51,433 nt of DNA from positions 1 to 51,433 of the IMG/VR virus record IMGVR_UViG_3300010885_032905. One strand, given 5' to 3'. This document shows positions 10,935-46,674 of this stretch, piece by piece. Each line of letters starts with the position of its first letter. The stretch's first letter is position 1. Source of the DNA: a virus. The notes below the pieces were generated by a model, which was not told where the DNA came from, ran no database searches, and saw only the letters and a list, made by a program, of their open reading frames with translations. A program made the translations under genes and the position numbers.

Positions 10935-11463
10935 ACCTCACATATATGCTGTAATCATCTGATAATCCAACTGTCACTGGTATGCTGTCAGTGGAGCTGG
11001 CTGTGACAGCATGAGGATATAATTCTATCCTCTTGATCAGATAATTGGGGTCATTCTTCATGGTTATATAGAACACGATGTTCTTGGCTCTTCCTATCAC
11101 ATCTACAACAAATCCATCTGCATTGCGTTGCCTGATGACGATTGGACTGGTTTGCGATTCAGAAGGGATAAACTTGCCGTTGAATGCAGCTGTCTCGGGA
11201 TCTATCAGCTGCCAGAATTTCTTAAAAGCCGGAGCCCTTTTCTTGTATATGATGCTGGGATGTCCTAGCTCATCATCACCTATGTAGTATTCTATAAGCT
11301 TTGATCTACCTTCTAGGATATCTACGGCGGTGTTAAACTCCATGGGTATCTTGCGCAGCGCTGTGTCATCTGGGCGTTTGTCCGTGAACCCCACATGCCT
11401 GATCTCCAGCGTGGTGTCGTCGTACCATGCCCATGCCTGTTCAGTCTCTGGTTCGTTGCTCAT
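10921..11463 (-). CDS. Unrecognised 180-residue protein in the glycosyltransferase cassette
   Basis: I do not recognise this protein. It has no signal peptide, membrane segment or catalytic motif that I can see. It looks like a mixed alpha/beta or beta-rich soluble protein, with a C-terminal strand-rich part (YSIYVRYDAA at the end). The ATG at 11463 is used because the longer frame begins with TTG. It overlaps the end of the upstream glycosyltransferase-like gene by 23 bases and runs into the start of the next one, so it belongs to the same coupled unit. Structural or accessory roles are both possible. Confidence 0.65.
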   Translation of the reverse strand: MSNEPETEQAWAWYDDTTLEIRHVGFTDKRPDDTALRKIPMEFNTAVDILEGRSKLIEYYIGDDELGHPSIIYKKRAPAFKKFWQLIDPETAAFNGKFIPSESQTSPIVIRQRNADGFVVDVIGRAKNIVFYITMKNDPNYLIKRIELYPHAVTASSTDSIPVTVGLSDDYSIYVRYDAA

Positions 11464-12316
11464 AATATCCAAGAATCTCGTCTGTTATGAATCCCTTTAC
11501 ATGATAATGCAGAGGGAAAAGCTGCAGGTAATTGCCTATCTTGCACTCAAGATTTGGATTAAAGAACACGCTCATGTGACCAGTCCAATCTTCTGAGATA
11601 CCAGGACCCCAGCCTTGTATCTCGCTTTTCATGTGTGTAAACGTTGGCAATGATCTTATGTTATACCATGTTTGATCAAGGTCTATTATCTTCAGCAATA
11701 GTGCAAAAACCACGTCAGTGCTCACTATCCTTGGCCTGTGCTCGGGCAATAGGTGTTCTTCAAAGAATCTTTCCCAGTTTAAAAACATGTATTTGGCCAT
11801 GGCAAAAATATCAAACACCTCAGTAGTTTTCTTGAAGTACATGAAAGCAGTATAGACATCTGGTAGATTGTTTTCAGTGAATGTCTTGCGATAGTAATCC
11901 GCAGAGACACCATCTGCACGATAGTTTAACACGCGATTGCATATCACGAAATCCTTGGAGGACATCTGATTCCACCAACTATCGATATCGTTGAAGAACA
12001 GCATATCACAATCCAGCTTGATGGTTTCTTCATAGGGGCTCATGTGCAGAGCTTTCCATTCGTTTTCAAGCTTCCAGCTGCTGTCCTTTGCATGGTCACC
12101 CCAGGGTATCTCGATTATGTTATCAAATGCCCATTTCCATTCATCGCGCACGGTCGTTCCAGGTGTTATGCCTATAGTTAGATACGGCACTGTCTTTTGG
12201 CTAGCGCGAAGGCTCATGGCCAGTGCATATGCTAGACGCACATAATCTGTTTCGCCGTTATTTTGTGCGAAAGTGAAAAAACCACGCGGCCGCTTGTTGA
12301 TATCATTGGACTGCAT
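11441..12316 (-). CDS. GT-A-type glycosyltransferase-like protein
   Basis: A 291-residue protein with the layout of a nucleotide-diphospho-sugar transferase. Residues 10-50 carry a strand and helix (FFTFAQNNGETDY, then a conserved LAYALAMSL helix). A strand ending in KLDCDMLFF gives a DxD motif near residue 103, preceded by SPYEETI. The pattern, with FAQNN at the start and SP-x-EET-x-x-x-D-x-D in the middle, is shared with the next upstream protein (FAHNN, SPFEETILVDAD), so the two form a second glycosyltransferase-like subfamily distinct from the 6934-10934 copies. It overlaps its upstream neighbour by 14 bases. Confidence 0.74.
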   Translation of the reverse strand: MQSNDINKRPRGFFTFAQNNGETDYVRLAYALAMSLRASQKTVPYLTIGITPGTTVRDEWKWAFDNIIEIPWGDHAKDSSWKLENEWKALHMSPYEETIKLDCDMLFFNDIDSWWNQMSSKDFVICNRVLNYRADGVSADYYRKTFTENNLPDVYTAFMYFKKTTEVFDIFAMAKYMFLNWERFFEEHLLPEHRPRIVSTDVVFALLLKIIDLDQTWYNIRSLPTFTHMKSEIQGWGPGISEDWTGHMSVFFNPNLECKIGNYLQLFPLHYHVKGFITDEILGYYEQRTRD

Positions 12317-16306: not shown

Positions 16307-19300
16307 TTAGCTCCTCGTTCCAGGGTGATCTTGCAAGAACTTGGCCATGCTTGATTTGCTGTACTGCAGCCCATTTGCCTCAGCTGCCCATCTGTAACCG
16401 CCGGGTATTGCAAGATTTACGCTGGCATCAAGTACAGGTTCCCCTACAACATGGCTTATGCTGCTACCAAATTTCACTTCAGCTCTAGGAGTTGCAAGTC
16501 TCACATTGCGCCAACCTGCAACCGGCGCTGCAGTAAAGCTCACATAGGTGCCAAACATGGATTGGCTTGGATTTTCGACTATGGTATAGGTACCAACCGT
16601 TGCATCGATCTCAGTGTCAACCTGCACAGTTGTTCCAACAGTAACCACTATGTTGCCACCAATAGGCAGGCTGCCTTGTCCTGCAGCAAACAGGGTAGTA
16701 ACGCCATCACCGTCATAGAAGATGCTGTCGTACAATACGCTCACATTGGCAACCGGAGTGTTAAAGGTGCCGCGCTGGAGTTGTTCTAGGAATCCTCGAT
16801 TTGGATATAGTTCTGTTGGCTCGGCTCTCACCGACCAATAGTCTATACGCTCGTCCCCTATCCAAATCGTACCACTTTGATATTCTGTAGGCATACCCAA
16901 CACTGTTATATCTGCAACTTCAATAGCATCACTGTATACGGTAACATCAGACAGCAACCTAGTTCTATTTGCATCGCTCAGCACTGTGCTGGTCTTTTCA
17001 ATATCAGTTGATATAGTTCTCCATGCAATAGCTGGTTTTTCTGGCAGATTAGACATGTATTGTACGTCTATTACATCGTTCAATGTGTGCGCTATGCCAG
17101 GTGCAAAGACCAGTGCAGCATCACCACGGTATTCTGTCTGCCAACCATATGCCTCCCAGGGTACTATGTCCCATCCAGGAATGGCATCAACTGTTATCAG
17201 CTGATAATCGTACATCAGGGTAAGCTGATCGCCCTGCGTTATGTTCTCCCCAGAGTTGTAAACCTGCTGCCATACCATCAATGTGCTATCATCATATGGT
17301 TTGAAAGTTAGCACATAAGTACCCGCCTTGTTGCCCGGTACCACTGGATAGCAAGGTCCAATCAACCTCTGTGCGTTAAAGTCATAGCTGAGATCTTCGT
17401 TATAGGTTATCACCTTGATGATATCGCCAGTGGTAGGCTGGTATGGGTTAGTTTCCCAGCCAAAGTAACCATTCCAACCAATCTCGTCCCAGCCGGGAGG
17501 AGAGTTGTTAAACACCAACAACCCGCCCTGTACTTGGAATGACCAACCGTATGCAGTATCAACTACTACCAAACTAACAGGTGCATTCACTATAGGAGCT
17601 GCATAGAAAACTACGTTAGGACCAACAATGGTGTAATCGTTTCCATAGGTTTGAAGATTGCTACCAACATAAACCAACAACGCTGCAGGATTTTCAGGCA
17701 TATAGATCGCAGCAAACACTGTTTGAATACCATCTGATCTATATTCTTGCACAGATGGCCCTGCGTACTCTAGTCCATTTATCAACAGCGTTGTGCTGTA
17801 ATACTGCGGTTTGGTGCTGCTAGGCGGTGGATATAGCGCATAGAAATACTGTCCAGTTTCAGCAGGAATTATTTGGTCTCTGACTATGCTGAAATTGGTA
17901 TTACTAAATGCTGATATTACCAATGTGCTATCGTTGGGTGGTGCAGGATCGATTGTTATTATCTTGCCTGTAGCTGTGATTGCAGCATTAATGCCATTCT
18001 GCAGCATGACACCGTCTAGGGTTATCATCGCAAAATTGATGTCATCATTGGGTAGTGGCGATCCGATAGCAAATCGAGTCTGAGATCCGTCGCCGGTGAA
18101 TATGTCCTGTGATAGCATGTTAGTAAACAATGCAGCAAATGTTGCATCTGTTCCGTTTCCAGTCGTGCTGTTTTGGGCTATCGGAGATGTTGGATGCAGG
18201 CTATAGGTGCCCTGGTTGCCCATGATAGCTGCAAATATACCCCACTGTATGTCAATCACAGATCCTGCGCCTGCACCGTTGGTGGTGTAAGAGTAGGATA
18301 GTGGCACGTATTGGTATATACCACCCTGTGTTATGCTTAATCCTGTGATAGCTCCGGTTCCTATCTCTATATTAGTGACCGTAAGCTCTACCTTATAGGT
18401 TTCACTGGTAGCGTAATCGTCTTCTAGGATCAGAACATCGCCTATTTCATAACCTCGGCCGCCATCCAAAATACTTGTCTGTGCGGCTGTAACCTCATTC
18501 ACTATGACCTGAGCAGCATCACCGTTGGCTGTCAATCCACCTGCCAACGCAATGCTATCGCCAGGCAGATAACCGTATCCGCCTGTAACCACAGATACCT
18601 GTTTGATACCCAGTCCTGTTCCACCCGCAGATATGGTTAAAATCTGCAGAGTTTTGCCAGTTGGTGGCACTGGGAATACAATCTGGTTAGTAGCCCAATT
18701 GATCACGTAATCAGCTGTGATACCGTAATCCAACAACACACCATCCATCTGTACCAGCACTGCTGCAGTGTCCATTGGTTTGATTCCCATGGCAAAGTGA
18801 TCAGCCTTACCATCTAGATCATAAACTCTGGTATAAATGATAGGCGACCCACCCGATGGCTGAGAATACACATCCATCCTAGTGCTTTCTAGCAATCTCG
18901 CAGTGTATAATTCTTCTGGATGGTTTTCGCCGACATACGGCTGCAAGAATTGATTACCGTCATTGATGATATCGATTGGTCCGGTTGGTGCGGGCAAGAA
19001 GGTGGTACCAACATATAGCATGAATATGTTTGGAGACGAGTTGCTGTCTGGCGGTACGTTGAATACCAAGGTCTGACCGCCCCAAACTGGCTGGAATGCT
19101 GCACCGTATCCACTGCCCATGGCATATGGTTGATATGACACTGGGATAACATCACCCTTGAATAGATCATATTCGCCGCTAGTATCCAATGTCCATGCGG
19201 TTATCGCACCATATTCGTCCACAGCTGCAACAGTTATATCAGTGGCTGCCAGTCTGGGCACTAGATCCAATACCAGCTTGTCACCTATCGCATATCCAGC

Positions 19301-22300
19301 ACCACCTGATGCCAATAACAGCGACGTGACATAATTTGGTATTATCCAATCCACGCCATAGTATTGCAGTTGGCTGTTAGCCCAAACCACTACCATTCCC
19401 GGATCTTGTACCAGTCGGCGCAGGTTAAATGCACGTTTTGATCCAGTACCGTAGAATGAATCATAATCTGGTACCACACCACCTTGCACCAATACATCGA
19501 GGTAATTGGTAAATGCAGACTGATCTGCGTCCCAGCCTGTTGGTGCACCCCAAGGGGCTTTCTGCCAGCCAGGCGAATAATCGAAACCAAGGCTATCCAT
19601 TATGATGCCACGATAATCACTGTTGGTGATAAGATTTGGATCGTCTTTGCGTATCATGTTTGCAGTAGGAGAATAGAATTCTACGATCCTGTCAAATGCA
19701 CCAAAGCTCACGGGTAGATAGGTGTTGTTTTCAAATTCCCAGGCCTTGGCTGCCCATGGATAGCTTTCCCAGCCAATGGATATGCTAGCTACTCTATCAA
19801 AGACCAGTTTCATCTTGAGAGTACGGATCAGTTCTGGATTGGTAAGATAGTTTTGCTGCCATGCATTGACAGTGTTGCCGTGGATGTTGACATTAACATT
19901 GTCAAAGTCAGTGACATAGACTTCGTCAAAATCTGCTAGCGTGCGCTGTGTTATGAATTCTCTGACCTTGACATGGTACGGCTTTATCTCATTGACGTAG
20001 GCCAGCAGCGCATCACTGTAATCAGGCTTGTATATCTCGCTATGGCTCAGTGGTATGTTAAACCCTTCTAGGGTTATGAAACTGGTCTTGAATATCCAAT
20101 CCACGAATCCCTGCTCCACCAGGATATAGTTTATCATGTTGAAGAACAGTTCGTTTAGGTATACCGATTCACCTGGCACATCCGGATTTGGATTGTTGAA
20201 TATCGCGTAGCGCAATCCATCAATGATGTTGCCAAACTCAACATGCGGGAATATATCAAACCCAGTGCTATCAAAAGGAGTAGTGCCAAACAACATGGTA
20301 TTGATGCTACCATTATAAACGCCATCACTGATCTGTATGGTACCATTCTGATAACCTACTGTCACCCATGCTCCAACATTGTTGGTGAGTATCCATTTGT
20401 AGATAGCCCAATAGCCGTCGCCTCGGTTGAGAACTTTGACAGTGACATTAGCTTGATTGCTGTACTGCTCCCTATCAAGGAGATTAGATACAGTGTAAGT
20501 TGGTATGGTGGCAGCAGTTACACCGCTGCCTATCAGATACCAATCAACATAGTACCAATAATTCGGAGTGTTAAATGCCTGTACAGCTAGGCGAGTCCAC
20601 AGATAATTGCCATTATTGTAATCGTAGCTGTAGAGGTTCCAGAGATTGTTATTGTCAGCACCGCCGAGCACTAACACGGTTGATCCAGACGGTATGTTAC
20701 CTGCTAGGCTATCTCGACTGCTGATGGTTCCCACGGTGTAATCAGCAGCCGGAGCTGGTTGTGCCCTGTCAAAATACTTCTTCCAATCCGAACGATTTAT
20801 GTCAGGTGACAGCAGTATGGTCAGCAGCAGCTGATTAGACTTATCAACATATGACTGTGCAGCTAGTAATCTGTACTTAAACCAACTCTGCCTAGGACGT
20901 ATCAGTGTGCCGTAACGCATTATGTCACTGAGATATGGATCTGGAACGTTTTGATCCTGTCCGTCCTTGCTGGTCAAGCTGTCCTTTAACTTGAGCCAGA
21001 AATAATCACTTGGTATGCTAGTTGGATCATTCTCTCTGACCAGATCCCACTGCTTGTAATCATTTTGATTGTTCTCAAGATGTGTGTACAGCAGGCTAAG
21101 CACGGTTTCTTCACCGCTGAGTGCATACCCAACATTGGCAACAAGTATGTTTCTATCATCTATAGCAGCATACCATCTTACACCGTAGCTAGTAGGATAG
21201 GTGATGATATTAGCTATCTCTAGAGTGGTAACATTCCTCGTAGGAGGCAGTGGTAGCGTAGTTGCATTCTTGACCCAGAAATAATACAACGTTTGAGCTG
21301 TGTATGCAGCTGTGTATGTGGTCAATGTAGTATAGGCAGGATTGCTGGAGTTCAGCACGGTTCCTGACGGTGTGTAATTGATACCGTACTGTACGAAACT
21401 CACTTGGTTTGCAACATAGGTAGCCCATTGATCAGGTGGTACTGGACTTTGTACCCATTCGTACACGTCTACGGTAGTACCCTGTGCTATCTTGCCCCAG
21501 TTCTGCCAACGGTATGCAGTATCACCAATCTCATAATCCAAATATCGTATGCTGCTGAGATCCCACCAGGTCTCACCAATGTGTTCAGGACCCCAGGCTC
21601 TGGCCGAATCGATCGGATATAGCAGCGGGTCTCCGGTATTGTATGCAGCAGGATCGTATATGCTCCTACGATCAAGATTTTTCTGCGCTAGGCTTGGAAT
21701 GAAACCCTTGGCAGGATCATAATATTCAAGGTATGCATAGATGCTACCAGAAGTCTTGTTGTATAGTTTGCCCTGCAGCATCAAAGCTGCATCTACCTTA
21801 GGCTGCTGACTACGCTGTGGCATCCAGTCGCCGTTGATATAGCTGTACACTGTCCAACCGCCGCGACCGTAAGCAGTGTGGTCAACATAGGCCACGTCGC
21901 CGGGCTGCCAACCGCCCAGAGGTGGATATTGATCTCTGTCTGTTTCGGTAGAATATCGAATGCGCTTGTAGGAATAGAACTGCCCGCCCGATCCCAGAGA
22001 ATAACTGCTAACCGGAACCGTAAAGCTATTGCCGTTGCCGGTTACATTGCTGACAACAAACGTGCCTTCTAGTGCAGTCACATTGCTGATACCCGTGAGC
22101 ACCACGATATCGCCGGTACCAACATCCACGTTGCCTGAACAATTTATGATGGTAGGTATGCCAGAATTAGCTGGAGCTGTGTTGATTACGTTAACAGGTG
22201 CTTGATTAAACTGCCAGACTGTCCATCCCTGTTTGTCATCTATGTACTGCCATACAGTGTCCCCGTTTTTCATTGGATTAGACGTGAGAGCCTGCGTGCT

Positions 22301-25300
22301 CCACAGGCTGGTAAGCATGCTGAGGTTTGATACGGTATAGGTGGTTTCGCCCTGCAGTACGTATCCCGATGTAGGCAAATCTACTTTATAGTCCTGATCA
22401 AGGCTGCTGCGGATCGGAAATAGCGGGTTGGTCTCGCTGCTATAACTGGTCGGAGGTACTACTATCTTTGGATCATTTGGTATGAGTACTATCACACCGT
22501 CTAGATCCTTGTCGCTGGTCTGCTTACCAAAAACAGTGATCTGTTGAGGATCGTTAATGTATTGGTTCTGAGGTATTATGAAATCAATGCCTATGTTCAG
22601 AGCAGTGCTACCAAATCTAGATGCTCTTAGCGCATATTCTTCGTAATAGCTGAAATCGCTGGTAACTGGTATGATGCTATTGTTACGCAATAGCTTGCTG
22701 ATAGCGCCCCTAGTGCCCTTCTGTCTTATGAATCCCTGATAGAACTGGAATTCTGTTGAATCTTCTAGCAGAAGATTCTGCAGATACAACCTCTGCTGGA
22801 ATCCGATCTGGTGCTTGGCTAGATTTGAAATCGCAGTTACATCTACGGCTGCCAAGCTGGTGCCACTTACTACCAAGTTGCCAGTCACAGGATCTATGCT
22901 GGTATAATTTTTTGGTTGTTCAATGTTGTAATACTTGCGGAAATCATCGGCTGTCTTTTCAAAATTAGGCACGGTGTTCCACTGATTGTCAGTGCCATTT
23001 TGATACAAGAAATAACCTGGAGCGTCGACACGACCATTCCAATCGTTGGTCCTATATGCGTATAGCTTCAATCTCGGCTGTGCTATATTGTACAATGGGT
23101 CATAGATGGTATCACCAAATGCTGTTTGGTTGTCTATCAGTATTACGCTTTCCAATGTGCTACTGAATAAACGCATGCCGTAGATGTTCTGTGGTCCTAT
23201 CGCATTGATTGTTATCGTATTATCATAGCGCAGAACTTCCAGATTTGGACCATCAATGCGTCCGCCAGCCTTGTCAATCACAGGATAGGTGCCGCTGATT
23301 ATGCCGTTAACAAACTGCACATTACCAAATGCTTGCTGGTACTTTGCAGTGATAGCTAGCGGACTCAGAGTTATGAAGTTACCGTTAGCCCAATTGCCTT
23401 GGCTCCAGAAAAGGAATTCTCGTCCAGCTTGAACCCAGTCTAGCGTGGTGTTACCATCCTGGTCGTATTGGTCAAAGATCCATCCTTGGAATTCTTGATA
23501 GCGTTGCAGGCTAATCAAGAAATCAAAGACTTCTTGTTTGGTAGCAAAGATCGTGCCGTACTGTACTTCTTCTGCAGCCTTAACTGGCGTTTGATACCAC
23601 GTGACTCTGTCATTGCCTACTACCAGAGTGCTCTTGGCACCAAATTTATTGCTAGGTATTATCAAGAAGTACTGATTGACACCGTCGTAGCCCAGCACCT
23701 TCCATCCGTTCTGCACCTGCGTGATTATTACACCGCTATAGAAACTGGTCCTTATGCTGGCACTGCGGTAGAGATATGTCTTGACATTCTCAGTGGGTAT
23801 GAGCTGAGTGCTGTAGCCAATCTGTCCAAAGCTATCAACAGCGAGGTAGCTGTTGCTGCCAATGAATCCGCCTACCTGATGAGCAAGCTGCACGTTGGTA
23901 CCGCGCACTATGTTGCCTAGATACTGTGTGATGTTTAGATTCTGGCTGATCACATATTCACTGATCCAGTGCTGTACACCACCGCTACCATAGTAGGTCA
24001 GGGTGCTTTCGTTTGGTACCTGGATGTTACCACCGACTGCACTAGGATTCTCCCTGTGCACATACAGCTGGCTGTTAGGCCGCCTGTTATTGGTATCTAT
24101 GTAGATCCACTGATCGGTCTCCTGTTCAGAGAACACGTTAACATTTCTCAGGGTATCCCAGTTGTATTCTATGAACTGAGCAGGTTTCATTAGATAGCTG
24201 TATTCTGCCACCACGAAGTTATATTCGTTGCTGTAATACCAAACTGATTCAACTGGAGCGCCATCTCCAAACTGCCAGTCAGCTTTGGCCTGCTCAGTGC
24301 TAGGTAAACTGGCAACTGTGCCAGCTGCCAGCGGCGGGAGCAGATTTCCCTGTTCATCAACGGGTATGCAATTCAGCAGTCCTGGTCGCACTCCTGCTAG
24401 ATAAATGCCTGCACGCGGTCCTTGCCTGATCAAACCTGCTGCCAAATCTTCCCACATTGCAGTGTTACCGCGTGTGTACGGAGCTGGACCATATTCATCT
24501 GTCCACCAGCTTGGTTGCTGGCTAAATCCCAGCATTTCCCAGGGTGCTAGATGCGGACGATCAGTGTCATAATACCAACGGTAGATGCCCTGCCAATAGC
24601 CGGGACCGTATCTACCATTGCGATCGGGGCAGTTTGAATAATTCCAGGTAAACTGATCGTTTTGATCATAGGTCGTATTAGCGCGATAATCAACCTGATT
24701 GTTTATGACCCACTTGTCGAACATGGGATAGTTGATGCTCAAGAACTCTTTCAGTGTGAAGTCACTGTTGCGCCAACGACCCGGCGTGTAAGGAGTGATA
24801 TCAAATGCTAGCTGGGCCTGAGGGTCCATATATGCATTGGGCATGTTATTGAATAGATCCAGTTCGAACTGCAACCACGCAGCTGCAACCGGATTGGTTA
24901 GCTGTGCAGGATTAGACGTAGATTGCTGTCCATACATGATGGTACCCAAAGGCATGCCGTCGTAGGCCATGATGATCCTAGCACCGTTGTGGCACTGGAT
25001 GGCAAGATGCATGCCTTGCAGATATACCACAGGTTGATATGCTGGGGTCACACCAAGTCGGGTAGCAGTGGGTGGCACGTATGTGGGATTAGTGCTCTTT
25101 AGATGGGTATAACCACCCTTTGGACCATCTGGACCGCTATTAGCCCAAGGACTGGCTGGATTTTTGCCAAGGTTTATCTGTTTGTAGGCAGTGTTTACCC
25201 AGGTCTCTGGACTCTCGGCTGCTGTGTATCCGTTTCTCCACAGGTTTAACAATGCGTTTATGAAACGATTGTAGAAGCGATTATAATCGCGTTGTGCAAA

Positions 25301-27442
25301 TTGCATAGCCAGCATTGGATCTGTCTTGCTCTGCACCGAATTAATACCCACAGTCACGTTACTGCTGGACAGTATCATTGGTTTGATCAGAGGAGCTCTG
25401 TTCTGCAATATGGCCAAACCAAGTCCACGTATCTGAGGAGTATCGCGCCAGTTATTATTGTTGTGCGGCTCGCCTTCAAATCCAGGTTGATTTATCAATA
25501 TCGTTTCAAACTGTTGCAGGAACTGGCTCTGCGTGACAGATGAAATCTGCAGATTGTTGGGGTTGGCCCGCAGGTTTGGTGGTACCTCGTAGTACCCATT
25601 GCGATGTATTGGGCTGCTGTTGCTCCAGCTCCTGATGTTTACACGCTGTCCATAAACAGCAGGTACTGCAAGCTTTACAATGTTATCAGATACTGTGTAA
25701 TCTACACCTTGCTTCAGCAAAACAGATTGCTGATCATAGATCAGTGTAACGTATATGCTGGGCAACAATCCAGGATTTGCAGCTGGTATCTGATCGATAA
25801 CGAACGAGTCTGTGGTAGCATTTACGGTATAATCGTTTACGATGTACTGCCTGCTTGGTTCGGGAGACCTATACCACTCGTTATTGAATTCAAATCCCTG
25901 CGGCTTGTTGTTCCTATAGTAAGCATAACCATATATAGGAGTATCAGCAGCGTCGCTGACATATTGATAGGTCTGACTGACGATGGCATTATCAAACACA
26001 TAGTTACCAAACTGGTCAGTCTTGGGTGAGAATCCAAGTTCGGTATCAACTGCAGCATATACATCCTGCTTGTAGGTAAAGACAGTGTTGCCCGCAAACG
26101 TGCTGCTTGGATAGATGCTAGGATCGTCTAGTGCGTTACCATCGTAGTCATACAGCATGAATTTAGGTGCCTCGAACGGCACTCGCTGCTGCGACCTCTT
26201 CCACGCAGTACCATCATACCAATATTGCACATGTCCAATGTATGAACCAGTGGCTGATAATGGTATGGTATCAAACAGGCACAGTATGGTTTCACCATAC
26301 ACAGGAGGACCTCCAATCAAGGTCAAGGTTATCACGCCAACCGTGGTTAAACCTTCTACTTGATAGACTCGATTGTTAACCAATGAATTAGTATCACCTG
26401 TGACCAAGATGGTGTCACCGTCTTGTAGATAGATACCAGGGAACACAGTGTACGAAGTTTGACCTACTATGCTAGTAAACACATCAGATACATCTGATAG
26501 CACATAGGTCACGTTTGGACGTCCTATGTAACCGTTGTTGTATAGCTGCATGTCAGATTCAAATTCTATTATAGGACGTGCTGCTCTCTGCTGGAATGAA
26601 GCAAATACCGATGTCTTTGATTTGACTAGGACATCTATATGGAACCAACGGTTGTTGCTGCTCCACTGGTTAGTAGGATGCTTGCTACGACCTATGGTTA
26701 GATAGTCCTTAATATAAAGCTGATCGTCGCCGTCCCAGCCCAGCGTGTCCCATGCACGTTCATCCCAGTTAGGATCTAGATACTCAGGGGTAGCGATCAA
26801 TTCTATGTCACGACCAACACCGTTTATGAGAAATGGATTACCATTCAGTGCTAGATCCGAATCATTGGTTGTCTGTATCACCAATCCGGTGGTGAACACC
26901 AGAGGTTCATTGATTATCTCACCAGTGCTGCTCAGCTGATATGGACCAGGATAGGTATACTGTCTCTGTCCGATAGCTGTGCGATTGAGATCCGTGTTTG
27001 CCAGCAATATAACTGGATCAGGACCTGCTGGTATCCAATAATATTTGGTATAATTGATCAGCTTATCTATATCAATCGGCGGCGACCAGCTGTAGTATTC
27101 CTGTTCAAACAGCCTGCTTTGATTGTCAATGTTTGCACCCTGGAACTGCAGAGCATTGACGAAATCATGATAGAACATGATGTTGGTAACAGCACCGCTG
27201 TTCAAGTTAGTGCTAACGCTGGTCTCAGGCAGCTGATAATCTGCGCGAGATTTGGTTGGTTCTCCCACATAGAAATCAGTCATAGGGTCGTAGTAGCTTG
27301 GTTTGGTCCCTATGTAACCGTTAATGAATTCCACGCTCTCCGGTTGAAATAGATGATCAACCGTAGCCGAGAAGAATTTGGTAAGCGTATCAGTTTGATT
27401 GACGCCTGGTAGAAGTTTAATAGGCCTACGATGTTCAACCAT
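16307..27442 (-). CDS. Giant virion structural protein (3711 residues), downstream of gp6
   Basis: The largest gene of the window. It sits where T4 has gp7 and where T4-like cyanophages carry very large tail-tip structural proteins. Around residue 1560 a segment with LYLQNLLLEDSTEFQFYQGFIRQKGT is of the type conserved in those proteins. The region from about 2700 has repeated GGxGYxxGDxLxL turns (near 2710, 2955 and 2995). The last 600 residues carry at least three beta modules beginning DGxxTxF (near 3115, 3240 and 3575), each followed by a VxVxGxxQxxG-type strand. No enzyme motif is evident. It overlaps the gp6 stop by eight bases, so it is translationally coupled to the baseplate wedge gene. 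The exact position in the baseplate is inference. Confidence 0.83.
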   Translation of the reverse strand: MVEHRRPIKLLPGVNQTDTLTKFFSATVDHLFQPESVEFINGYIGTKPSYYDPMTDFYVGEPTKSRADYQLPETSVSTNLNSGAVTNIMFYHDFVNALQFQGANIDNQSRLFEQEYYSWSPPIDIDKLINYTKYYWIPAGPDPVILLANTDLNRTAIGQRQYTYPGPYQLSSTGEIINEPLVFTTGLVIQTTNDSDLALNGNPFLINGVGRDIELIATPEYLDPNWDERAWDTLGWDGDDQLYIKDYLTIGRSKHPTNQWSSNNRWFHIDVLVKSKTSVFASFQQRAARPIIEFESDMQLYNNGYIGRPNVTYVLSDVSDVFTSIVGQTSYTVFPGIYLQDGDTILVTGDTNSLVNNRVYQVEGLTTVGVITLTLIGGPPVYGETILCLFDTIPLSATGSYIGHVQYWYDGTAWKRSQQRVPFEAPKFMLYDYDGNALDDPSIYPSSTFAGNTVFTYKQDVYAAVDTELGFSPKTDQFGNYVFDNAIVSQTYQYVSDAADTPIYGYAYYRNNKPQGFEFNNEWYRSPEPSRQYIVNDYTVNATTDSFVIDQIPAANPGLLPSIYVTLIYDQQSVLLKQGVDYTVSDNIVKLAVPAVYGQRVNIRSWSNSSPIHRNGYYEVPPNLRANPNNLQISSVTQSQFLQQFETILINQPGFEGEPHNNNNWRDTPQIRGLGLAILQNRAPLIKPMILSSSNVTVGINSVQSKTDPMLAMQFAQRDYNRFYNRFINALLNLWRNGYTAAESPETWVNTAYKQINLGKNPASPWANSGPDGPKGGYTHLKSTNPTYVPPTATRLGVTPAYQPVVYLQGMHLAIQCHNGARIIMAYDGMPLGTIMYGQQSTSNPAQLTNPVAAAWLQFELDLFNNMPNAYMDPQAQLAFDITPYTPGRWRNSDFTLKEFLSINYPMFDKWVINNQVDYRANTTYDQNDQFTWNYSNCPDRNGRYGPGYWQGIYRWYYDTDRPHLAPWEMLGFSQQPSWWTDEYGPAPYTRGNTAMWEDLAAGLIRQGPRAGIYLAGVRPGLLNCIPVDEQGNLLPPLAAGTVASLPSTEQAKADWQFGDGAPVESVWYYSNEYNFVVAEYSYLMKPAQFIEYNWDTLRNVNVFSEQETDQWIYIDTNNRRPNSQLYVHRENPSAVGGNIQVPNESTLTYYGSGGVQHWISEYVISQNLNITQYLGNIVRGTNVQLAHQVGGFIGSNSYLAVDSFGQIGYSTQLIPTENVKTYLYRSASIRTSFYSGVIITQVQNGWKVLGYDGVNQYFLIIPSNKFGAKSTLVVGNDRVTWYQTPVKAAEEVQYGTIFATKQEVFDFLISLQRYQEFQGWIFDQYDQDGNTTLDWVQAGREFLFWSQGNWANGNFITLSPLAITAKYQQAFGNVQFVNGIISGTYPVIDKAGGRIDGPNLEVLRYDNTITINAIGPQNIYGMRLFSSTLESVILIDNQTAFGDTIYDPLYNIAQPRLKLYAYRTNDWNGRVDAPGYFLYQNGTDNQWNTVPNFEKTADDFRKYYNIEQPKNYTSIDPVTGNLVVSGTSLAAVDVTAISNLAKHQIGFQQRLYLQNLLLEDSTEFQFYQGFIRQKGTRGAISKLLRNNSIIPVTSDFSYYEEYALRASRFGSTALNIGIDFIIPQNQYINDPQQITVFGKQTSDKDLDGVIVLIPNDPKIVVPPTSYSSETNPLFPIRSSLDQDYKVDLPTSGYVLQGETTYTVSNLSMLTSLWSTQALTSNPMKNGDTVWQYIDDKQGWTVWQFNQAPVNVINTAPANSGIPTIINCSGNVDVGTGDIVVLTGISNVTALEGTFVVSNVTGNGNSFTVPVSSYSLGSGGQFYSYKRIRYSTETDRDQYPPLGGWQPGDVAYVDHTAYGRGGWTVYSYINGDWMPQRSQQPKVDAALMLQGKLYNKTSGSIYAYLEYYDPAKGFIPSLAQKNLDRRSIYDPAAYNTGDPLLYPIDSARAWGPEHIGETWWDLSSIRYLDYEIGDTAYRWQNWGKIAQGTTVDVYEWVQSPVPPDQWATYVANQVSFVQYGINYTPSGTVLNSSNPAYTTLTTYTAAYTAQTLYYFWVKNATTLPLPPTRNVTTLEIANIITYPTSYGVRWYAAIDDRNILVANVGYALSGEETVLSLLYTHLENNQNDYKQWDLVRENDPTSIPSDYFWLKLKDSLTSKDGQDQNVPDPYLSDIMRYGTLIRPRQSWFKYRLLAAQSYVDKSNQLLLTILLSPDINRSDWKKYFDRAQPAPAADYTVGTISSRDSLAGNIPSGSTVLVLGGADNNNLWNLYSYDYNNGNYLWTRLAVQAFNTPNYWYYVDWYLIGSGVTAATIPTYTVSNLLDREQYSNQANVTVKVLNRGDGYWAIYKWILTNNVGAWVTVGYQNGTIQISDGVYNGSINTMLFGTTPFDSTGFDIFPHVEFGNIIDGLRYAIFNNPNPDVPGESVYLNELFFNMINYILVEQGFVDWIFKTSFITLEGFNIPLSHSEIYKPDYSDALLAYVNEIKPYHVKVREFITQRTLADFDEVYVTDFDNVNVNIHGNTVNAWQQNYLTNPELIRTLKMKLVFDRVASISIGWESYPWAAKAWEFENNTYLPVSFGAFDRIVEFYSPTANMIRKDDPNLITNSDYRGIIMDSLGFDYSPGWQKAPWGAPTGWDADQSAFTNYLDVLVQGGVVPDYDSFYGTGSKRAFNLRRLVQDPGMVVVWANSQLQYYGVDWIIPNYVTSLLLASGGAGYAIGDKLVLDLVPRLAATDITVAAVDEYGAITAWTLDTSGEYDLFKGDVIPVSYQPYAMGSGYGAAFQPVWGGQTLVFNVPPDSNSSPNIFMLYVGTTFLPAPTGPIDIINDGNQFLQPYVGENHPEELYTARLLESTRMDVYSQPSGGSPIIYTRVYDLDGKADHFAMGIKPMDTAAVLVQMDGVLLDYGITADYVINWATNQIVFPVPPTGKTLQILTISAGGTGLGIKQVSVVTGGYGYLPGDSIALAGGLTANGDAAQVIVNEVTAAQTSILDGGRGYEIGDVLILEDDYATSETYKVELTVTNIEIGTGAITGLSITQGGIYQYVPLSYSYTTNGAGAGSVIDIQWGIFAAIMGNQGTYSLHPTSPIAQNSTTGNGTDATFAALFTNMLSQDIFTGDGSQTRFAIGSPLPNDDINFAMITLDGVMLQNGINAAITATGKIITIDPAPPNDSTLVISAFSNTNFSIVRDQIIPAETGQYFYALYPPPSSTKPQYYSTTLLINGLEYAGPSVQEYRSDGIQTVFAAIYMPENPAALLVYVGSNLQTYGNDYTIVGPNVVFYAAPIVNAPVSLVVVDTAYGWSFQVQGGLLVFNNSPPGWDEIGWNGYFGWETNPYQPTTGDIIKVITYNEDLSYDFNAQRLIGPCYPVVPGNKAGTYVLTFKPYDDSTLMVWQQVYNSGENITQGDQLTLMYDYQLITVDAIPGWDIVPWEAYGWQTEYRGDAALVFAPGIAHTLNDVIDVQYMSNLPEKPAIAWRTISTDIEKTSTVLSDANRTRLLSDVTVYSDAIEVADITVLGMPTEYQSGTIWIGDERIDYWSVRAEPTELYPNRGFLEQLQRGTFNTPVANVSVLYDSIFYDGDGVTTLFAAGQGSLPIGGNIVVTVGTTVQVDTEIDATVGTYTIVENPSQSMFGTYVSFTAAPVAGWRNVRLATPRAEVKFGSSISHVVGEPVLDASVNLAIPGGYRWAAEANGLQYSKSSMAKFLQDHPGTRS

Positions 27443-34285: not shown

Positions 34286-36886
34286 TCATGCCCCTGCATG
34301 ATATCCTTGTCCGCCAGTTACTATAGGTCCAGGTGCTGCACGAAAGTCACTTGGTCCGGTAGTATCGGTAGGAGCGTTTATTGTAGCACTGTCGCCGGCC
34401 AACGCAGTTTGTGCCAAGACATCTTTAGAACACTTCAGTTGCTGTGTGAACTTGCCACGATTGAAAAGATTTTCAACCTGCATGATGTTGTAGATTCCGT
34501 TGAAAAAATCCCCGCTACCCGGACCTGTCTTGGCCAGACCAGTATCCTCATCTATGACTATTCCAGTCTTGAATTCCAGCAAGATGCAGTTATCCCCACC
34601 AAGATAGTCAGCTGTTGGATTGCTATTGTTCAATGCAGCTGTCACCTGTTGGCTTTGAGCATACTGCAGGGCTTGATAATCCATGAATATGTTTCCAGTT
34701 GGTATCCACCAGGGATCGCCGCGTATACCAAGGTCTATCTGTAAGAATGCAGTACCATCAAACAGATTGCCAAATATCGCACCAACAAAACCAGTTCCCG
34801 GCGCATAGGCCTGCGGATCTCGGTCTGGCGTGGTCTTGGTCTGATCAGCATTTTGTATGGCATTCACGCCATAGGGCTTTGGATCAAACATACCAACCAC
34901 AGGCAGCGGAGGTTGAGTGATATCGTTGAGCTGATAGTCTTCTAAGAACGTTGTAGCCAGAGTTGATTCCCTGTTGGTTAGGTAATTGGCTTTTTGGTTT
35001 AGAAAGTTCTTAACAGCTGGATTGTCATTAAGCGCTGCTGCTGCAGCAAGATCACCGGCGCTGTAATGGTTGAATATCAGCTGATTGTTATTGCTGCTGC
35101 TGCTGGTACTAGGTCCAGGAGTGGTCGACGGTGTACCGTTGCCGGTAACGAGATTTGTTCGCTCGGCTATCAAAGCGTTGCGCTGCACAGAGTCTATAGA
35201 ATTGTTACCAGTGGTATCAACTTGCCGCACACCATTGGCAAAATTAAATGTGTTACCGCCAAGCAGCTTGTCTATCTGTGCAATCCTATTAGCTGCTGGA
35301 CTGGTCTGATCTTGAGGTAGCAGACCCTTTACCTGTAGATATCCCTGGCTGTTCTGGGCAGCCAAAGGACCAACACCAAATTGGTGATAGGCATTGCTTT
35401 GATTCCATATGGGCTGCGTGATAGCCCAATAATTGTCTATCTTGATATCAAAGGTCACTACCTCTGTGTTTTTTCCAGTATAGATGTAATCGTAACGCTT
35501 CACCAAACGATTGTTGCTGATGAGGTACCGCAACTTGGATAACTGCGTGCTCTGCTTCTGTGCAGCTATGGCAGACTGCATGTCAGTGTAGGCTTTGGTT
35601 GATTCGGTGGGGATCAGGGTGTAGGTTATCTCTATCTTGTAATCCTGTAGATCAAAATCCCAGCCAACTATCTTCATGCTGCTGTATACTGTTACATATT
35701 TCAGTATGCCCTGTCCAGACAGGCTGGCCCCGCCTGTGGTAGATGCATCTTCACCTGTGATCCAAGCTCTGGCATTTTCAGACAGATATACCACAAAGTT
35801 CACGATGTTCTCTATGGCCTGTCCCTTGTTTATGGAAATCACTGTCTGATTGCCCAGCGCCGATGCCTGCATATCAGTGTTTCTAGCTACCTGATTGTTG
35901 ATATCAGCTGCTTTGAGATTCCATGTCTTCCATACGTCAGGGTAAACTATCTTGTAGGTCGTTCTCTGTACGCCATCGTGGTTGAGTTCAGTTTGTTGCT
36001 TGTTCAGCGCTTCTTGATAGCCCAAGAAGAAATCAGCCAGCGTAACTGCCTTGATCTTGATGTTGGCCATGGGTGTGGCTTTTTGGTTCATCTCACCCAT
36101 CACGTTGTCGCAGATCATCTTGATGCTATATGTGCTACCAACGTGCGTGGCCTGCACAGAGATGTTCTGCACTACAACTCTGTAGAGATTGTAATAGAGG
36201 TTGTCTGCGATCAAGTTACCATCTTCGTCATAGCCCTTGAACCATATCTCCAAGAAATAGGGGCAGCGCATGTGATTGGCTACCAAACCTTCTTGAGCTG
36301 CTGCGTAGATCTTGTCCATGAGGCTCAAACCAAGAGGTTCGCTGACTGTGAGGTCAAATTCCTGCACTGCCCACATGTTGCGCTTGGTGTTGTTAGCAGC
36401 ACATGATGCGATGCTCTTGAGTTCCAGTATGTTAAATCCCGCAGTGACGCCGCTTTCGGCTATCACGGTCTTGGCCATGGCATTGCTGTTTGGATTGGCG
36501 ATATCCACGTTGTTGTAGGCTTCTTCTTCGCTGGTCAGGAACCATCTGATGTGATAGGTGTAGTTGGCCAATGCATTCAGTGGATTTGAAGCTGGGTTGA
36601 AATTCAATCCTAGGCCAGCTATCCTAGCGTCAAAACTGGTATCAGCAGGCGTGGTAGTTGTGGTGGTTATAGGCTGTCCGTTTTGCCTGTCTCGATTGTA
36701 GATCTGATCAGCAAACCTCAGTGCATTTGGGCCGGTAAATCGAGGATCAAACGTGTTGTTATAGACATTGACCTTGGCACCTGCGTCAGGCGAAGCAGGA
36801 TTAGTAGCCGGTATCGCAGCAACGTTGGTAGCGGTTGGGCCTGGTCTCACGAAATTGTTGAGAAATTGCGGAAGAACATCTACCAT
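34286..36886 (-). CDS. Probable baseplate hub protein (gp27 position)
   Basis: An 866-residue structural protein between gp53 and gp5, so it most likely forms the hub to which the gp5 spike attaches, as gp27 does in T4 (391 residues). I see no decisive family motif. The N-terminal 100 residues are Pro, Asn, Ala and Thr rich. Residues about 105-480 are mixed strands and helices (LTVSEPLGLSLMDKIYAAA, YFLEIWFKGYDEDGN, and VVQNISVQATHVGSTYSIK), a pattern seen in tube-like hub domains. The last 150 residues are low-complexity. The start at 36886 overlaps the gp53 stop (TGATG). The gp27 link rests mainly on gene order. Confidence 0.6.
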   Translation of the reverse strand: MVDVLPQFLNNFVRPGPTATNVAAIPATNPASPDAGAKVNVYNNTFDPRFTGPNALRFADQIYNRDRQNGQPITTTTTTPADTSFDARIAGLGLNFNPASNPLNALANYTYHIRWFLTSEEEAYNNVDIANPNSNAMAKTVIAESGVTAGFNILELKSIASCAANNTKRNMWAVQEFDLTVSEPLGLSLMDKIYAAAQEGLVANHMRCPYFLEIWFKGYDEDGNLIADNLYYNLYRVVVQNISVQATHVGSTYSIKMICDNVMGEMNQKATPMANIKIKAVTLADFFLGYQEALNKQQTELNHDGVQRTTYKIVYPDVWKTWNLKAADINNQVARNTDMQASALGNQTVISINKGQAIENIVNFVVYLSENARAWITGEDASTTGGASLSGQGILKYVTVYSSMKIVGWDFDLQDYKIEITYTLIPTESTKAYTDMQSAIAAQKQSTQLSKLRYLISNNRLVKRYDYIYTGKNTEVVTFDIKIDNYWAITQPIWNQSNAYHQFGVGPLAAQNSQGYLQVKGLLPQDQTSPAANRIAQIDKLLGGNTFNFANGVRQVDTTGNNSIDSVQRNALIAERTNLVTGNGTPSTTPGPSTSSSSNNNQLIFNHYSAGDLAAAAALNDNPAVKNFLNQKANYLTNRESTLATTFLEDYQLNDITQPPLPVVGMFDPKPYGVNAIQNADQTKTTPDRDPQAYAPGTGFVGAIFGNLFDGTAFLQIDLGIRGDPWWIPTGNIFMDYQALQYAQSQQVTAALNNSNPTADYLGGDNCILLEFKTGIVIDEDTGLAKTGPGSGDFFNGIYNIMQVENLFNRGKFTQQLKCSKDVLAQTALAGDSATINAPTDTTGPSDFRAAPGPIVTGGQGYHAGA

Positions 36887-42790: not shown

Positions 42791-43283
42791 GCTACAGTTC
42801 TTACTCTCTTTCTAATCTACATATTGGCTCAATAATGGTGATGTGGTCACCCGGTGAAAGGATACATTACAGTGTATCAAACTCACCGGATGGGGATTCT
42901 ATCTGCTAGGCCCCTGCCAAATAAATCAGAAAAAGGATCACAGCCGCCGTGTGACTGGCCTGCTGTGATGCAAGATGTGTCTCGCCGTTTGACCTTCTTG
43001 TAGCTTGGGTAAACTCCCATAACCGAGTATTGAGATAGAGATATCTCAGAGAGATGGCATCCGTATGTTGGAATGTAGGTACTCCGCCAACTGCTGAAAG
43101 GCAAGGATGAAAGGGCAATGGTGTCGTTCGAACCAGAATGATATTTCACATGGTCACTCCCTGGACAAGGGAGTGATATGGCTGCTAATCGACCAGAATA
43201 ACTAATAAAGGATTGTTAAAGAGAAATGTTAGATGAGCTTTAGCTCAGCTAACTGATGAGCGCAAGCTCATCACTGATACCTC
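42791..43283 (+). ncRNA. Candidate structured RNA between convergent genes
   Basis: These 493 bases carry no convincing gene but many precise hairpins. In plus-strand order: GGTGA/TCACC (42837-42851); CCGGTGA/TCACCGG enclosing GATACA/TGTATC (42851-42889); ATCACAGC/GCTGTGAT (42937-42969); TGAGATA/TATCTCA closed by a GAGA tetraloop (43031-43048), flanked by GAGTA/TACTC (43025-43029, 43080-43084); TCACTCCCT/AGGGAGTGA (43154-43176); and the two terminal hairpins at 43228-43273, one with a GCAA tetraloop. GNRA loops appear only when read on the plus strand, so the RNA would be the plus-strand transcript, possibly the tail of the gp55-gp46 message. I could not match it to tRNA, tmRNA, or the conserved core of group I introns. 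Confidence 0.5.
43228..43273. terminator. Twin hairpins at the convergent gene ends (probable bidirectional terminator)
   Basis: Hairpin one is GTTAG-a-TGAGC with a four-base loop and GCTCA-g-CTAAC-type arms (43228-43253). Hairpin two is TGATGAGC-GCAA-GCTCATCA (43254-43273), a perfect 8-base-pair stem. They share the GATGAGC arm, so alternative pairings are possible. Read on the minus strand they are followed by a T-rich stretch, but no full U-run follows on the plus strand, so terminator activity is likelier for the gp26 message. Confidence 0.5.
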
Positions 43284-43472
43284 TTACATCTGTTGCTGTT
43301 TCTTAGGATTCATATTGTCAAAGTGTTTTTGGATCATCTGTCCTAGATTCTTGCGCTGATCAAGCGTTAACAGATATGCATCGTTGTAATCCAGTCCACC
43401 ATTCATGTAGAATACCAGATTGTTGATATCATGCTCAACGATACCTCGATTTTCGTCCATCAGCTTGATCAT
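43284..43472 (-). CDS. Small frame after gp26, probably reached by -1 frameshift
   Basis: A 62-residue frame with NLVFYMNGGLDYNDAYLLTL in the middle, a pattern (FYMxGGxxxxDAxxLT) that recalls short tail-assembly chaperone parts in phages with T4-like baseplates. It occupies the position of gene 51 relative to gp26, but T4 gp51 is about 249 residues, so I do not give the name. The two possible ATGs (43472 and 43460) lack a good ribosome binding site. The frame is open upstream to the slippery heptamer in gp26, so it is likely made mainly as the tail of a 357-residue gp26 fusion. Confidence 0.68.
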   Translation of the reverse strand: MIKLMDENRGIVEHDINNLVFYMNGGLDYNDAYLLTLDQRKNLGQMIQKHFDNMNPKKQQQM

Positions 43473-43480
43473 CTCTGTGA

Positions 43481-44356
43481 TCAGGTCGTGGTCTGAGGTC
43501 GATAACGTCTTGAGAAAAAAAGCGCGGGATCAAAGCTCAGCTCTTCGTCCCATTCATTGCCACAAGCTTCGCATTTAGCCAAAGTCTTCTTGGGTGGTCC
43601 AACCACGTTCAAATTGTTCACAGCTTCTGTTATGGTCTCTGCAGTGTTCATGTCTATGTTGGTTAACCACTCTGCGATATGCTCTTTGTCCGTGACTGTT
43701 TGTGCATCCTCTCCCAGTATCTCGATGGAAGTGATGCTGTTTGCCAGCAATTTGAATGTCAGCTGTGACAGTTTCTCTATGCTCTTGGCCAACAGTCCAG
43801 CTCTGGTAAACTCGTCACTAGTTCCTTCATCTAACTCTATGGCATTGATGGTCTGCTGTTCTTCCAGCTGTTTCTGCAGCAGCATGCTGCGCTGTTCAAA
43901 ATCATATGGTTTGACGTTCACGCGCATGTTACCATCGATGTTGATCTTGGTCTCGCTGTCCTCGATATATGTCATGCCATCCAGTAGATGGTTGCACTGA
44001 ACTTCAAAGTTGTTCTCATGCCCACACTTGGCACACTTGCGTTCTATCTCAAACTTGCCGCGATTGGTAGCAGATTTGATGCCTAGGAAGATAGCATCTA
44101 GATCTGGCTGCAGCAAGCGTTTGACATCTTTGACATCAGGCACGCAGCTGGTGATCACGCTTTCTAACGCATATCCGTTAAACAGCGCATCTGGCGTGTT
44201 CAGCATGATGTCGTCGATAGCAGTGAGACCAAATATCCTCACTTCTTGTCGATCATTGAGCACAACTTCCCTGTTGCGATACCATCTACCGCCGCTGGGT
44301 AATCTGATCCACAGTGCTGGCCGCCTGAAATAGCGCTGTAGCGGGTTATCGACCAT
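43481..44356 (-). CDS. 26: Baseplate hub assembly protein gp26
   Basis: A 291-residue protein with the N-terminus NPLQRYFRRPALWIRLPSGG typical of gp26-type proteins in T4-like phages (phage T4 baseplate protein family). Two CxxC pairs, C108/C111 (CAKCGHEN) and C262/C265 (CEACGNEW), look like a zinc ribbon. In T4, gp26 is needed for hub assembly together with gp51, probably as a chaperone. The start at 44356 is preferred: a GGAGAT ribosome binding site precedes it, whereas the ATG at 44371 has that sequence inside its own codons. Near its end lies a T-TTT-TTC slippery sequence. Confidence 0.83.
   Translation of the reverse strand: MVDNPLQRYFRRPALWIRLPSGGRWYRNREVVLNDRQEVRIFGLTAIDDIMLNTPDALFNGYALESVITSCVPDVKDVKRLLQPDLDAIFLGIKSATNRGKFEIERKCAKCGHENNFEVQCNHLLDGMTYIEDSETKINIDGNMRVNVKPYDFEQRSMLLQKQLEEQQTINAIELDEGTSDEFTRAGLLAKSIEKLSQLTFKLLANSITSIEILGEDAQTVTDKEHIAEWLTNIDMNTAETITEAVNNLNVVGPPKKTLAKCEACGNEWDEELSFDPALFFSRRYRPQTTT
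43514..43520 (-). promoter_or_regulatory. Slippery heptamer T TTT TTC, candidate -1 ribosomal frameshift site
   Basis: On the minus strand, codons 280-281 of gp26 read TTT TTC, preceded by T, giving the heptamer T TTT TTC in the X XXY YYZ phase for -1 slippage. The zero frame stops ten codons later at 43481. The -1 frame is open from the heptamer through the 62-residue downstream frame, with 14 linking codons. A TGATCA-N6-TGATCA hairpin begins 30 bases downstream, farther than the usual stimulator distance. Confidence 0.7.
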
Positions 44357-44368
44357 GGTGCATATCTC

Positions 44369-44376
44369 CATAAATA
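44369..44376 (+). promoter_or_regulatory. Late promoter motif CATAAATA (tape measure)
   Basis: CATAAATA ends 54 bases before the tape measure gene start at 44431. It faces the minus-strand motif at 44389-44396. Confidence 0.6.
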
Positions 44377-44430: not shown

Positions 44431-46674
44431 ATGGCATCAGATTTTGAATCAGGTTCGGGTCCTTGGGCTAAAGATGCTACCCTCAGAGATCTGATCTCCG
44501 TAAGCGGTAACCAAAATAAGATACTTGGTTTGATCGCTACAGCGCTTAAGGTAGATTCAGATCAGTTAAAAAGCCTCACTGGTGGTTTATCTATTACCAA
44601 CAGAGAAATGGCTGCTAGCCGACGACAGACCGATGAAATTATCAAAGAAGCAAAGGGCACCACCAAGGTAGCATTAAAAAGCGCAGATTCGTTAAACAGC
44701 ATACTAAAAAACAAGACTGCTGGTTTAAAAGGCGAATTCAGTTCTGCTATAGGTGGTATTGGGGAAGCTTTAGCTAAGAACGGCAAATACAGCAAGCTAG
44801 TAGCAGCTGCAGAGCTATTAGGTACAGGTCTAGAAGCTCTATATAACAACGCTACTGCTCTTTCTGATGCTACTCTACAGGCATATGACAGCGGTATTGT
44901 TTTCAGTGGTGGTATGCATGAAGTTGCTAGGACCATGGATGCCACCGGTCTTGGTTTAGAAAAATTTCAGAAAGTCATACTTCGCAATAGCCAAGTGGTA
45001 TCAGCTGTGGGTATACCTAGGTTACAGGCCCTAAGCGAGAGTTTCAAGACTCTAACTAACAGAGGTGTTGATCTTGGCACTGATCTCGAGGGTGCTCAAC
45101 AAACCCTGCTAAGCTACATGGAGATACAGAGATCAAGTGGTCAGCTTACCAAGAAAGATGATAAGGAACTTACAGCTGGTGCCATGGCTTATGGCAAACA
45201 GTTAAACGAGCTAAGCCAGCTCACCGGCAAGCGACGCGAACAACTGGATCAAGAGGTCAAGGAGCACATCAAACGTCCTAGATTGCAGATCATGCTTAGT
45301 AGCATGACTGGAGATGCTAGAGCTGCTGCTGAACAGGGAATACGAGGTTTAGCGCCTTTGGGCCCAATGGCTGAGAAGATGGAAAATCTCATGGCAGGCT
45401 ATCGTGCCAGAGGTTTAGCTGGTATGCAAGATGCTGATGCTAATCTAACCCAGGCAATAATGAATTCTGGGCACATGAACGATTTCATAGAAGCATATAA
45501 TGCTACCATGCAAGGTAACACAGCTCGGCAAAAAGAAGCATTTACTGCGCTAGGCGGTGGTATACAAGATTTCGTTAGGCAGCGGGCAAATTATAATGGT
45601 GCCACACAGTACGTGATGGGACAGCAGATTGAATCTGCACAGGAGCTAGCCACAGCTTCAACTGCATATAGCCAGAAAGTTGATGCTGCTGGCAAAGGGG
45701 TGCCAGATGATGTCAAAGCTATATCAGGTGTGCAGCAGGCATTTGCTGAGGCTGCAGCTAAGTTTGATACAGCATTGTTGGACCTAAGCAGCCGTATAGT
45801 ATCATATGCCGCACCAATGTTACAAACACTTGGTGATACAGCTGTGAAAGCTGCCACAGGCGTGCAAGATCTTGTGAATTTCCTTGGTTATGGTGAATTA
45901 CCTCGCGGCGGAGATGGTAAGATTGATTGGAGCAGGGTAGTTGTAGCAGGTTTAGACATAGCAGCGCCGACCGCGGCTGCCATAGGCGGTGCAGCGATTA
46001 CCAGACGTATGCTTAACCGCGAAGGCGAACCAGAACTGCGCGATAACTTACATCCTGAAGTAGATCACGAAGCTCGAATGGGCCGATCGCGCATGCGACG
46101 CAGCGGCATGAGGCGACTCACTGGTGGTCTTGGGTGGTTACAGTCACTGTATCTGGGTGCAGAAGCAGGGCTTGAAGATCAAAGCATAGGAGTTGGAGCT
46201 GCAACAACTGGTGGTGGATTAGTAGGTGGTGCAGTAGGCGAACGTGTACTTGGTGATGCTGTTGATAAGCTAACGCTGCGTATGGCCAGTGACGGAAGTC
46301 TAAGGAAGGCAGTAGTAGCTGGACTGATCTCACTGGGCGGACATGCCATTGGGCAGTTGGGCGGTACAGAGCTTGGTGCTATGACATCTAGACAGCTGGC
46401 AGAGATGGCACTGGGTGCAGGTCCGCAGCAGTCTGTTGCACCAACAGACAACGGTGATAATGCTGGTGGCACTCAATACGGTAATACTGGGCCGGTGACC
46501 ACTGATGGAAGCACTCCTGCAGCGCAACCAAGCAGCGGCGCATCTGATCTGCGGCAAACCAATGGATTGCTACAGCAGATGATAGATAAGCTAGATGCTC
46601 TGATCTCGACTGAACAATCTTCTACCCGCACTCTCAGCGAAGCCTATGCCAGAGGACAGGGTGTGGTACATTAA
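44431..46674 (+). CDS. Probable tail length tape measure protein (gp29 position)
   Basis: A 747-residue protein: long alpha-helical N-terminal half rich in Ala, Leu, Lys and Gln (about 20-480), followed by a Gly/Ala-rich region with hydrophobic helices (VAAPTAAAIGGAAI and TTGGGLVGGAVG, about 500-640) and a disordered, Ser/Thr-rich end with a final short helix (LLQQMIDKLDALI). That architecture, and position next to the hub assembly gene gp26 and before the portal, fits a tape measure protein equivalent to T4 gp29 (590 residues), which sets tail length inside the tube. No conserved motif confirms it. Its own late promoter motif precedes it. Confidence 0.68.
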   Translation: MASDFESGSGPWAKDATLRDLISVSGNQNKILGLIATALKVDSDQLKSLTGGLSITNREMAASRRQTDEIIKEAKGTTKVALKSADSLNSILKNKTAGLKGEFSSAIGGIGEALAKNGKYSKLVAAAELLGTGLEALYNNATALSDATLQAYDSGIVFSGGMHEVARTMDATGLGLEKFQKVILRNSQVVSAVGIPRLQALSESFKTLTNRGVDLGTDLEGAQQTLLSYMEIQRSSGQLTKKDDKELTAGAMAYGKQLNELSQLTGKRREQLDQEVKEHIKRPRLQIMLSSMTGDARAAAEQGIRGLAPLGPMAEKMENLMAGYRARGLAGMQDADANLTQAIMNSGHMNDFIEAYNATMQGNTARQKEAFTALGGGIQDFVRQRANYNGATQYVMGQQIESAQELATASTAYSQKVDAAGKGVPDDVKAISGVQQAFAEAAAKFDTALLDLSSRIVSYAAPMLQTLGDTAVKAATGVQDLVNFLGYGELPRGGDGKIDWSRVVVAGLDIAAPTAAAIGGAAITRRMLNREGEPELRDNLHPEVDHEARMGRSRMRRSGMRRLTGGLGWLQSLYLGAEAGLEDQSIGVGAATTGGGLVGGAVGERVLGDAVDKLTLRMASDGSLRKAVVAGLISLGGHAIGQLGGTELGAMTSRQLAEMALGAGPQQSVAPTDNGDNAGGTQYGNTGPVTTDGSTPAAQPSSGASDLRQTNGLLQQMIDKLDALISTEQSSTRTLSEAYARGQGVVH

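Follow-up and report, generated by a model that had tools for sequence, protein, structure and literature searches.

We identified a gene that is very probably a T4-like tail assembly chaperone of the gp26/gp51 type, with -1 programmed ribosomal frameshifting yielding a short and a long form. It lies in a virus record of 51,433 nucleotides from a large phage related to T4 (IMG/VR record IMGVR_UViG_3300010885_032905), and this whole stretch is called the window here. The claim is firm only as far as sequence goes, where comparative genomics establishes the slippery site, its phase, the coding nature of the -1 frame and the standing of the long form as the equivalent of T4 gp51. Part of it has evidently already been published.

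In the proposed mechanism, most ribosomes would translate 291 codons and then stop, giving the short form. Some would slip back by one base on the heptamer T TTT TTC, where the two Phe tRNAs could re-pair with UUU UUU, and would read 76 further codons in the -1 frame, producing a long form of 357 amino acids. Slippage at low frequency would make short copies numerous and long copies few. If lambda G/GT is a guide, both forms may coat the tape measure protein during assembly of the tail tube or hub and then leave. What we infer is that the shift takes place, how efficient it is and that the products act as chaperones.

A gp26-like gene with an open -1 frame at its 3' end

The window carries T4-superfamily genes for portal, head protease, late sigma factor and SbcCD. 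The gp26-like gene occupies positions 43481–44356 on the minus strand and comprises 291 codons followed by TGA (43483–43481), the zero-frame reading that would give the short chaperone form. A probable Shine-Dalgarno sequence, GGAG (44366–44369, minus strand), lies nine bases 5' of the ATG at 44356. We prefer this start to the upstream ATG at 44371 because the methionine at 44356 is invariant among relatives. The product, which carries paired CxxC motifs, matches the Pfam family PF12322 (T4_baseplate; 57.1 bits, E = 2.7e-15, above the gathering score of 24.5) and phrog_150 (E = 1.8e-19). An AlphaFold model of a 296-residue reading of the gene has a mean pLDDT of 92. Foldseek comparison of this model with the PDB gave nothing at E ≤ 0.001, and phmmer found no match for the protein among PDB sequences; by these measures it has a confidently predicted fold without a solved relative.

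The slippery heptamer T TTT TTC is located at 43514–43520 on the minus strand, inside the overlap of the two frames, and fits the pattern X XXY YYZ. It is read in the zero frame as CTT TTT TTC and is followed by ten codons (SRRYRPQTTT) before the TGA. The T run in the window contains seven T (CTTTTTTTC), and in most relatives only six. The -1 frame extension (43284–43514, minus strand) reads LKTLSTSDHDLITE-MIKLMDEN... and stays open for 76 codons to a TAA at 43286–43284. It includes a 62-residue frame of the kind annotated as a small gene (43284–43472, minus strand), whose methionine is separated from the slip by 14 linking codons. The extension is predicted to be all-helical (pLDDT 82). Neither it nor the 62-residue frame has a convincing family match in PHROG or Pfam.

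An earlier sequence-only reading had proposed this arrangement, namely a heptamer in exact -1 phase ten codons before the gp26 stop, a -1 frame open through the 62-residue frame, a small frame without a good ribosome binding site, and a 291-residue gp26 made alongside a 357-residue fusion. Recomputed coordinates place the heptamer in that phase at 43520–43514, both lengths were reproduced from the start at 44356, the -1 frame is open as described, and we likewise see no convincing Shine-Dalgarno sequence before the 62-residue frame.

Sites of this kind are rare in the window. An in-phase T TTT TTY occurs only three times in approximately 20,100 codons of open reading frames of at least 100 amino acids, and a long open -1 frame follows only the one in gp26. 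The others, in the frames at 34289–36886 and 11444–12316 (both minus strand), were rejected as candidates, the -1 frame being shut within about ten codons.

Several features of the surrounding genome deserve mention. The divergent neighbor (44431–46674, plus strand) encodes a predicted virion protein of 747 amino acids that has no match of its own in Pfam or PHROG. Syntenic genes are found in RaK2, GAP32 and CBB, the one in RaK2 carrying an annotation of similarity to a tape measure protein. Approximately 490 bases without a clear gene (42791–43283) separate a convergent open reading frame, which ends at 42790, from the gp26 -1 frame, and a gap of several hundred bases is seen at the matching place in some jumbo relatives. 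Elsewhere, at 3711 codons, the open reading frame at 16307–27442 (minus strand) is very long for a phage gene.

Conservation of the slippery site among relatives

A search of phage records at the DNA level returned nothing, so relatives were gathered by protein searches. They include ten IMG/VR records, 17 jumbo phage records, cyanophages, KVP40-like phages, Delftia phage PhiW-14 and Aeromonas phage ZPAH1, all of which have the arrangement seen in the window. Of the 211 gp26 loci surveyed, two are truncated. The relatives are not independent and some loci represent one contig taken twice; we therefore regard 72 clusters at 70% identity as a better count than the 203 usable loci outside the Ackermannviridae.

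All 203 of these loci have an in-phase T TTT TTY and an open -1 frame at the matching Phe-Phe, with T TTT TTT in eight loci and T TTT TTC in the remainder. The codon ahead of the first Phe specifies any of ten residues across the 72 clusters (Ser, Asn, Leu, His, Thr, Ala, Asp, Arg, Tyr or Val). Nonetheless, its third base is T in 72 of 72, and the first Phe codon is TTT in 72 of 72. From pooled codon usage, the probability of a T-ending codon followed by TTT throughout is 1e-38, a figure that ignores kinship among the clusters. In 19,471 gp26 codons of the clustered relatives there is one other in-phase copy of the heptamer. The arrangement is not due to chance.

Past the slip, the first 13 codons, which precede the first ATG in many relatives, have a dN/dS across relatives of 0.24 in the -1 frame, 1.05 in the zero frame and 1.49 in the +1 frame. 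Selection in the -1 frame is stronger still beyond codon 13. The zero-frame tail shows no conservation, and its length ranges from 0 to 11 codons. By these ratios, purifying selection past the slip acts on the -1 frame and not on the zero frame. The fusion suggested by the sequence-only reading is thus strongly supported by the heptamer, phase and open frame in relatives and by protein-level selection on the linking codons.

That reading also held that relatives keeping both frames while lacking the heptamer would speak against a frameshift. Such relatives occur only in the Ackermannviridae (Kuttervirus, Taipeivirus, Miltonvirus and VAP7), which keep both frames and lack the conserved heptamer. 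Their gp26 3' ends (L033, L035, L121, L122 and L215–L232 in our survey) have ATTTTC, GTTTTC or GTTTTT before the stop, the stop is overlapped by ATG, ATT or ATC, and the -1 frame is open and conserved. Either a different site or a non-canonical shift may operate in this family, or the downstream frame may be reached by coupled re-initiation.

RNA structure downstream of the heptamer

Canonical -1 frameshift cassettes have an RNA structure about 5–9 bases past the slippery site. Folding of the approximately 75 bases that follow the heptamer is more stable than that of synonymous-codon shuffles, with mean z-scores of -2.1, -2.5 and -1.5 in three groups. This extra stability is absent further downstream and inside gp26. 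Contiguous stems of up to 13 base pairs begin 3–12 bases, mostly 5–7, 3' of the heptamer, and compared with synonymous-codon shuffles they are significant in 35 of the 72 clusters at p ≤ 0.05, and in 25 at p ≤ 0.01. Compensatory changes of base pairs are found in one stem family.

In the window itself the downstream region has a folding z of -0.37 and the stem search gave p = 0.55, neither of which exceeds chance. The hairpin noticed in the sequence-only reading is present (TGATCA-CAGAGA-TGATCA, 43466–43483, minus strand) and starts 30 bases after the heptamer. The data do not support it as a stimulator in this genome, and it is not the general one because stems in many relatives start much closer to the heptamer.

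Alternative routes to the downstream frame

Another possibility is that the -1 frame forms a small gene of its own and that no fusion is made, with translation beginning either by coupled re-initiation at the gp26 stop or at an independent start. The frame is annotated as separate in several phages, ATGA overlaps occur in some relatives (Phosso, Atu_ph07), and an ATG, GTG or TTG lies within the interval from -5 to +20 relative to the zero-frame stop in 41 of the 72 clusters, so some separate initiation is possible. However, a Shine-Dalgarno-like site precedes the first -1 start in just three of 72 clusters and the -1 frame is under selection upstream of its usual first start, which together favor entry by slippage. 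In the window the first -1 start comes 14 codons past the slip. A separate gene would also leave the invariant heptamer without a use, and T4 has the fused form as a single gene, gp51. We consider this explanation improbable, though the strongest of the alternatives.

Slippage of RNA polymerase on the T run, rather than of the ribosome, could in principle produce the same shift, and the seven T of the window might be misread by polymerases at a low rate. In most relatives, however, the run has just six T, the phase and the third bases obey the tRNA re-pairing rule X XXY YYZ, and RNA stems at a distance of 5–7 bases are typical of ribosomal shifts; we give this reading very little weight. Less credible again is a decayed fusion or a sequencing error that leaves the -1 frame unexpressed. 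A broken fusion in one genome is conceivable, given that the fused form exists as T4 gp51, but the arrangement is conserved across 72 divergent clusters with the -1 frame under purifying selection. Ribosomal frameshifting remains the explanation that we prefer.

Relationship to T4 gp26 and gp51

T4 gp26 (208 amino acids, ending ...LKEFFELL) and T4 gp51 (249 amino acids) both match PF12322, which covers only residues 1–201 of gp51. The C-terminal part of gp51 shares phrog_634 with the -1 frame pieces of cyanophages and vibriophages. Across the superfamily as a whole, the alignment is too diverged for a search at the DNA level. Direct profile comparison of the extension in the group containing the window gave 2.5% with gp51 and 0.4% with the cyanophage extensions, neither of which is significant. 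The connection runs through intermediates: the extensions of the window group match those of RaK2-like phages at 99.8%, the RaK2-like extensions match those of cyanophages at 55% (E = 1e-4), and the cyanophage extensions match the gp51 C-terminus at 96%. None of 60 column shuffles reached the observed score of this chain. Linked in this way by profiles, the window extension is homologous to the C-terminus of T4 gp51.

Frameshifting is not proposed for either T4 gene. In-phase TTTAAAC and TTTAAAG occur in T4 gp26, whose end lacks a useful -1 frame, and a single T TTT TTG is found close to the start of T4 gp51.

The gp51 proteins of cyanophages and marine vibriophages have been reported to be without the first ~200 residues (PMC3037559). 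These residues would be missing because the protein is made by a shift from gp26. Genes in three surveyed loci that are annotated as baseplate hub assembly catalyst, or truncated gp51 (L030:3232–3369, L031:3223–3366 and L036:2908–3075), are the -1 frame pieces of gp26, and their annotation as separate genes is therefore probably wrong.

We tentatively extend this to a broader scenario, which we hold at somewhat below even odds. A frameshifted gp26 with a downstream stem would be general in the T4 superfamily, jumbo phages among its members, and its distribution suggests that it is probably ancestral. The gp26 and gp51 genes, both essential in T4, would have arisen by a duplication that came later and took the place of the shift, truncated gp51 would be an artefact of annotation, and the Ackermannviridae would have evolved another, non-canonical shift or coupling.

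T4 gp51 is required and yet absent from the particle, and gp26 and gp51 both appear in the list of hub assembly chaperones (PMC3004832). In the annotation of PA5oct (NC_071039.1), an ESI-MS/MS mark is found on portal and on the neighboring structural protein and none on gp26, which is consistent with a chaperone that is absent from the virion.

Comparison with known systems

The sequence-only reading knew of no frameshift in hub chaperones of the gp26 type. This appears to have been overtaken, since T4-like tail assembly chaperones were identified by Vladimirov, Gautam and Davidson (2022, Virology 566:9–15), as cited in PMC10885494 and PMC12846349. The strategy has evidently been described, because the paper on phage Adele (PMC12846349) credits the 2022 study when it refers to poly-T sequences as known -1 signals in T4-like TAC-N genes. 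According to the PRFect paper, some T4-like phages have two genes in place of a shift, one short and the other a longer fusion (PMC10885494), and T4 is listed as the exception among phages with frameshifted tail chaperones (PMC5009743). On this jumbo group, the stem or the Ackermannviridae shift we found no statement in the literature, in which the 2022 paper is represented by those that cite it.

The comparative evidence shows that much of the T4 superfamily, jumbo phages included, carries the predicted shift, and that in T4 the two forms come from two genes. Many genes labeled hypothetical or truncated gp51 would be re-labeled as the end of gp26. A prediction for T4 is that the ratio of the long to the short form (gp51 to gp26) matters.

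The gene resembles T4 gp26 and gp51 in its PF12322 domain, in the pairing of a short and a long form, and in the homologous C-terminal extension of the long form. In T4 and Aes508 the two proteins come from separate divergent genes with no heptamer, whereas the window, cyanophages, KVP40-like and RaK2-like phages encode the pair in one gene.

The comparison with lambda G and GT made in the sequence-only reading holds for the arrangement of one gene, a -1 shift near its 3' end, and a short and a long product. As with lambda gpG/gpGT, P2 E/E+E' and further frameshifted tail assembly chaperones (PMC5009743), the short product would be the major and the long product the minor one, with an inferred role in assembly. 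The lambda heptamer is different, however, and these systems show no detectable similarity to gp26 in sequence or fold; neither gp26 nor its extension matched the lambda-type tail chaperone family, and the Foldseek search of the PDB was empty. Further differences from these systems are the paired CxxC motifs and the divergent orientation relative to the structural neighbor in the window. By analogy, then, the gp26-like gene would work like G/GT while standing outside the lambda G/GT sequence family.

Phage Adele (Vandenendeviridae) and the Andersonviridae likewise have a conserved -1 shift in a tail chaperone whose downstream piece is annotated as hypothetical (PMC12846349). Their invariant site is GTTTTT, which is nearer to the RTTTTY of the Ackermannviridae than to the T TTT TTC described here.
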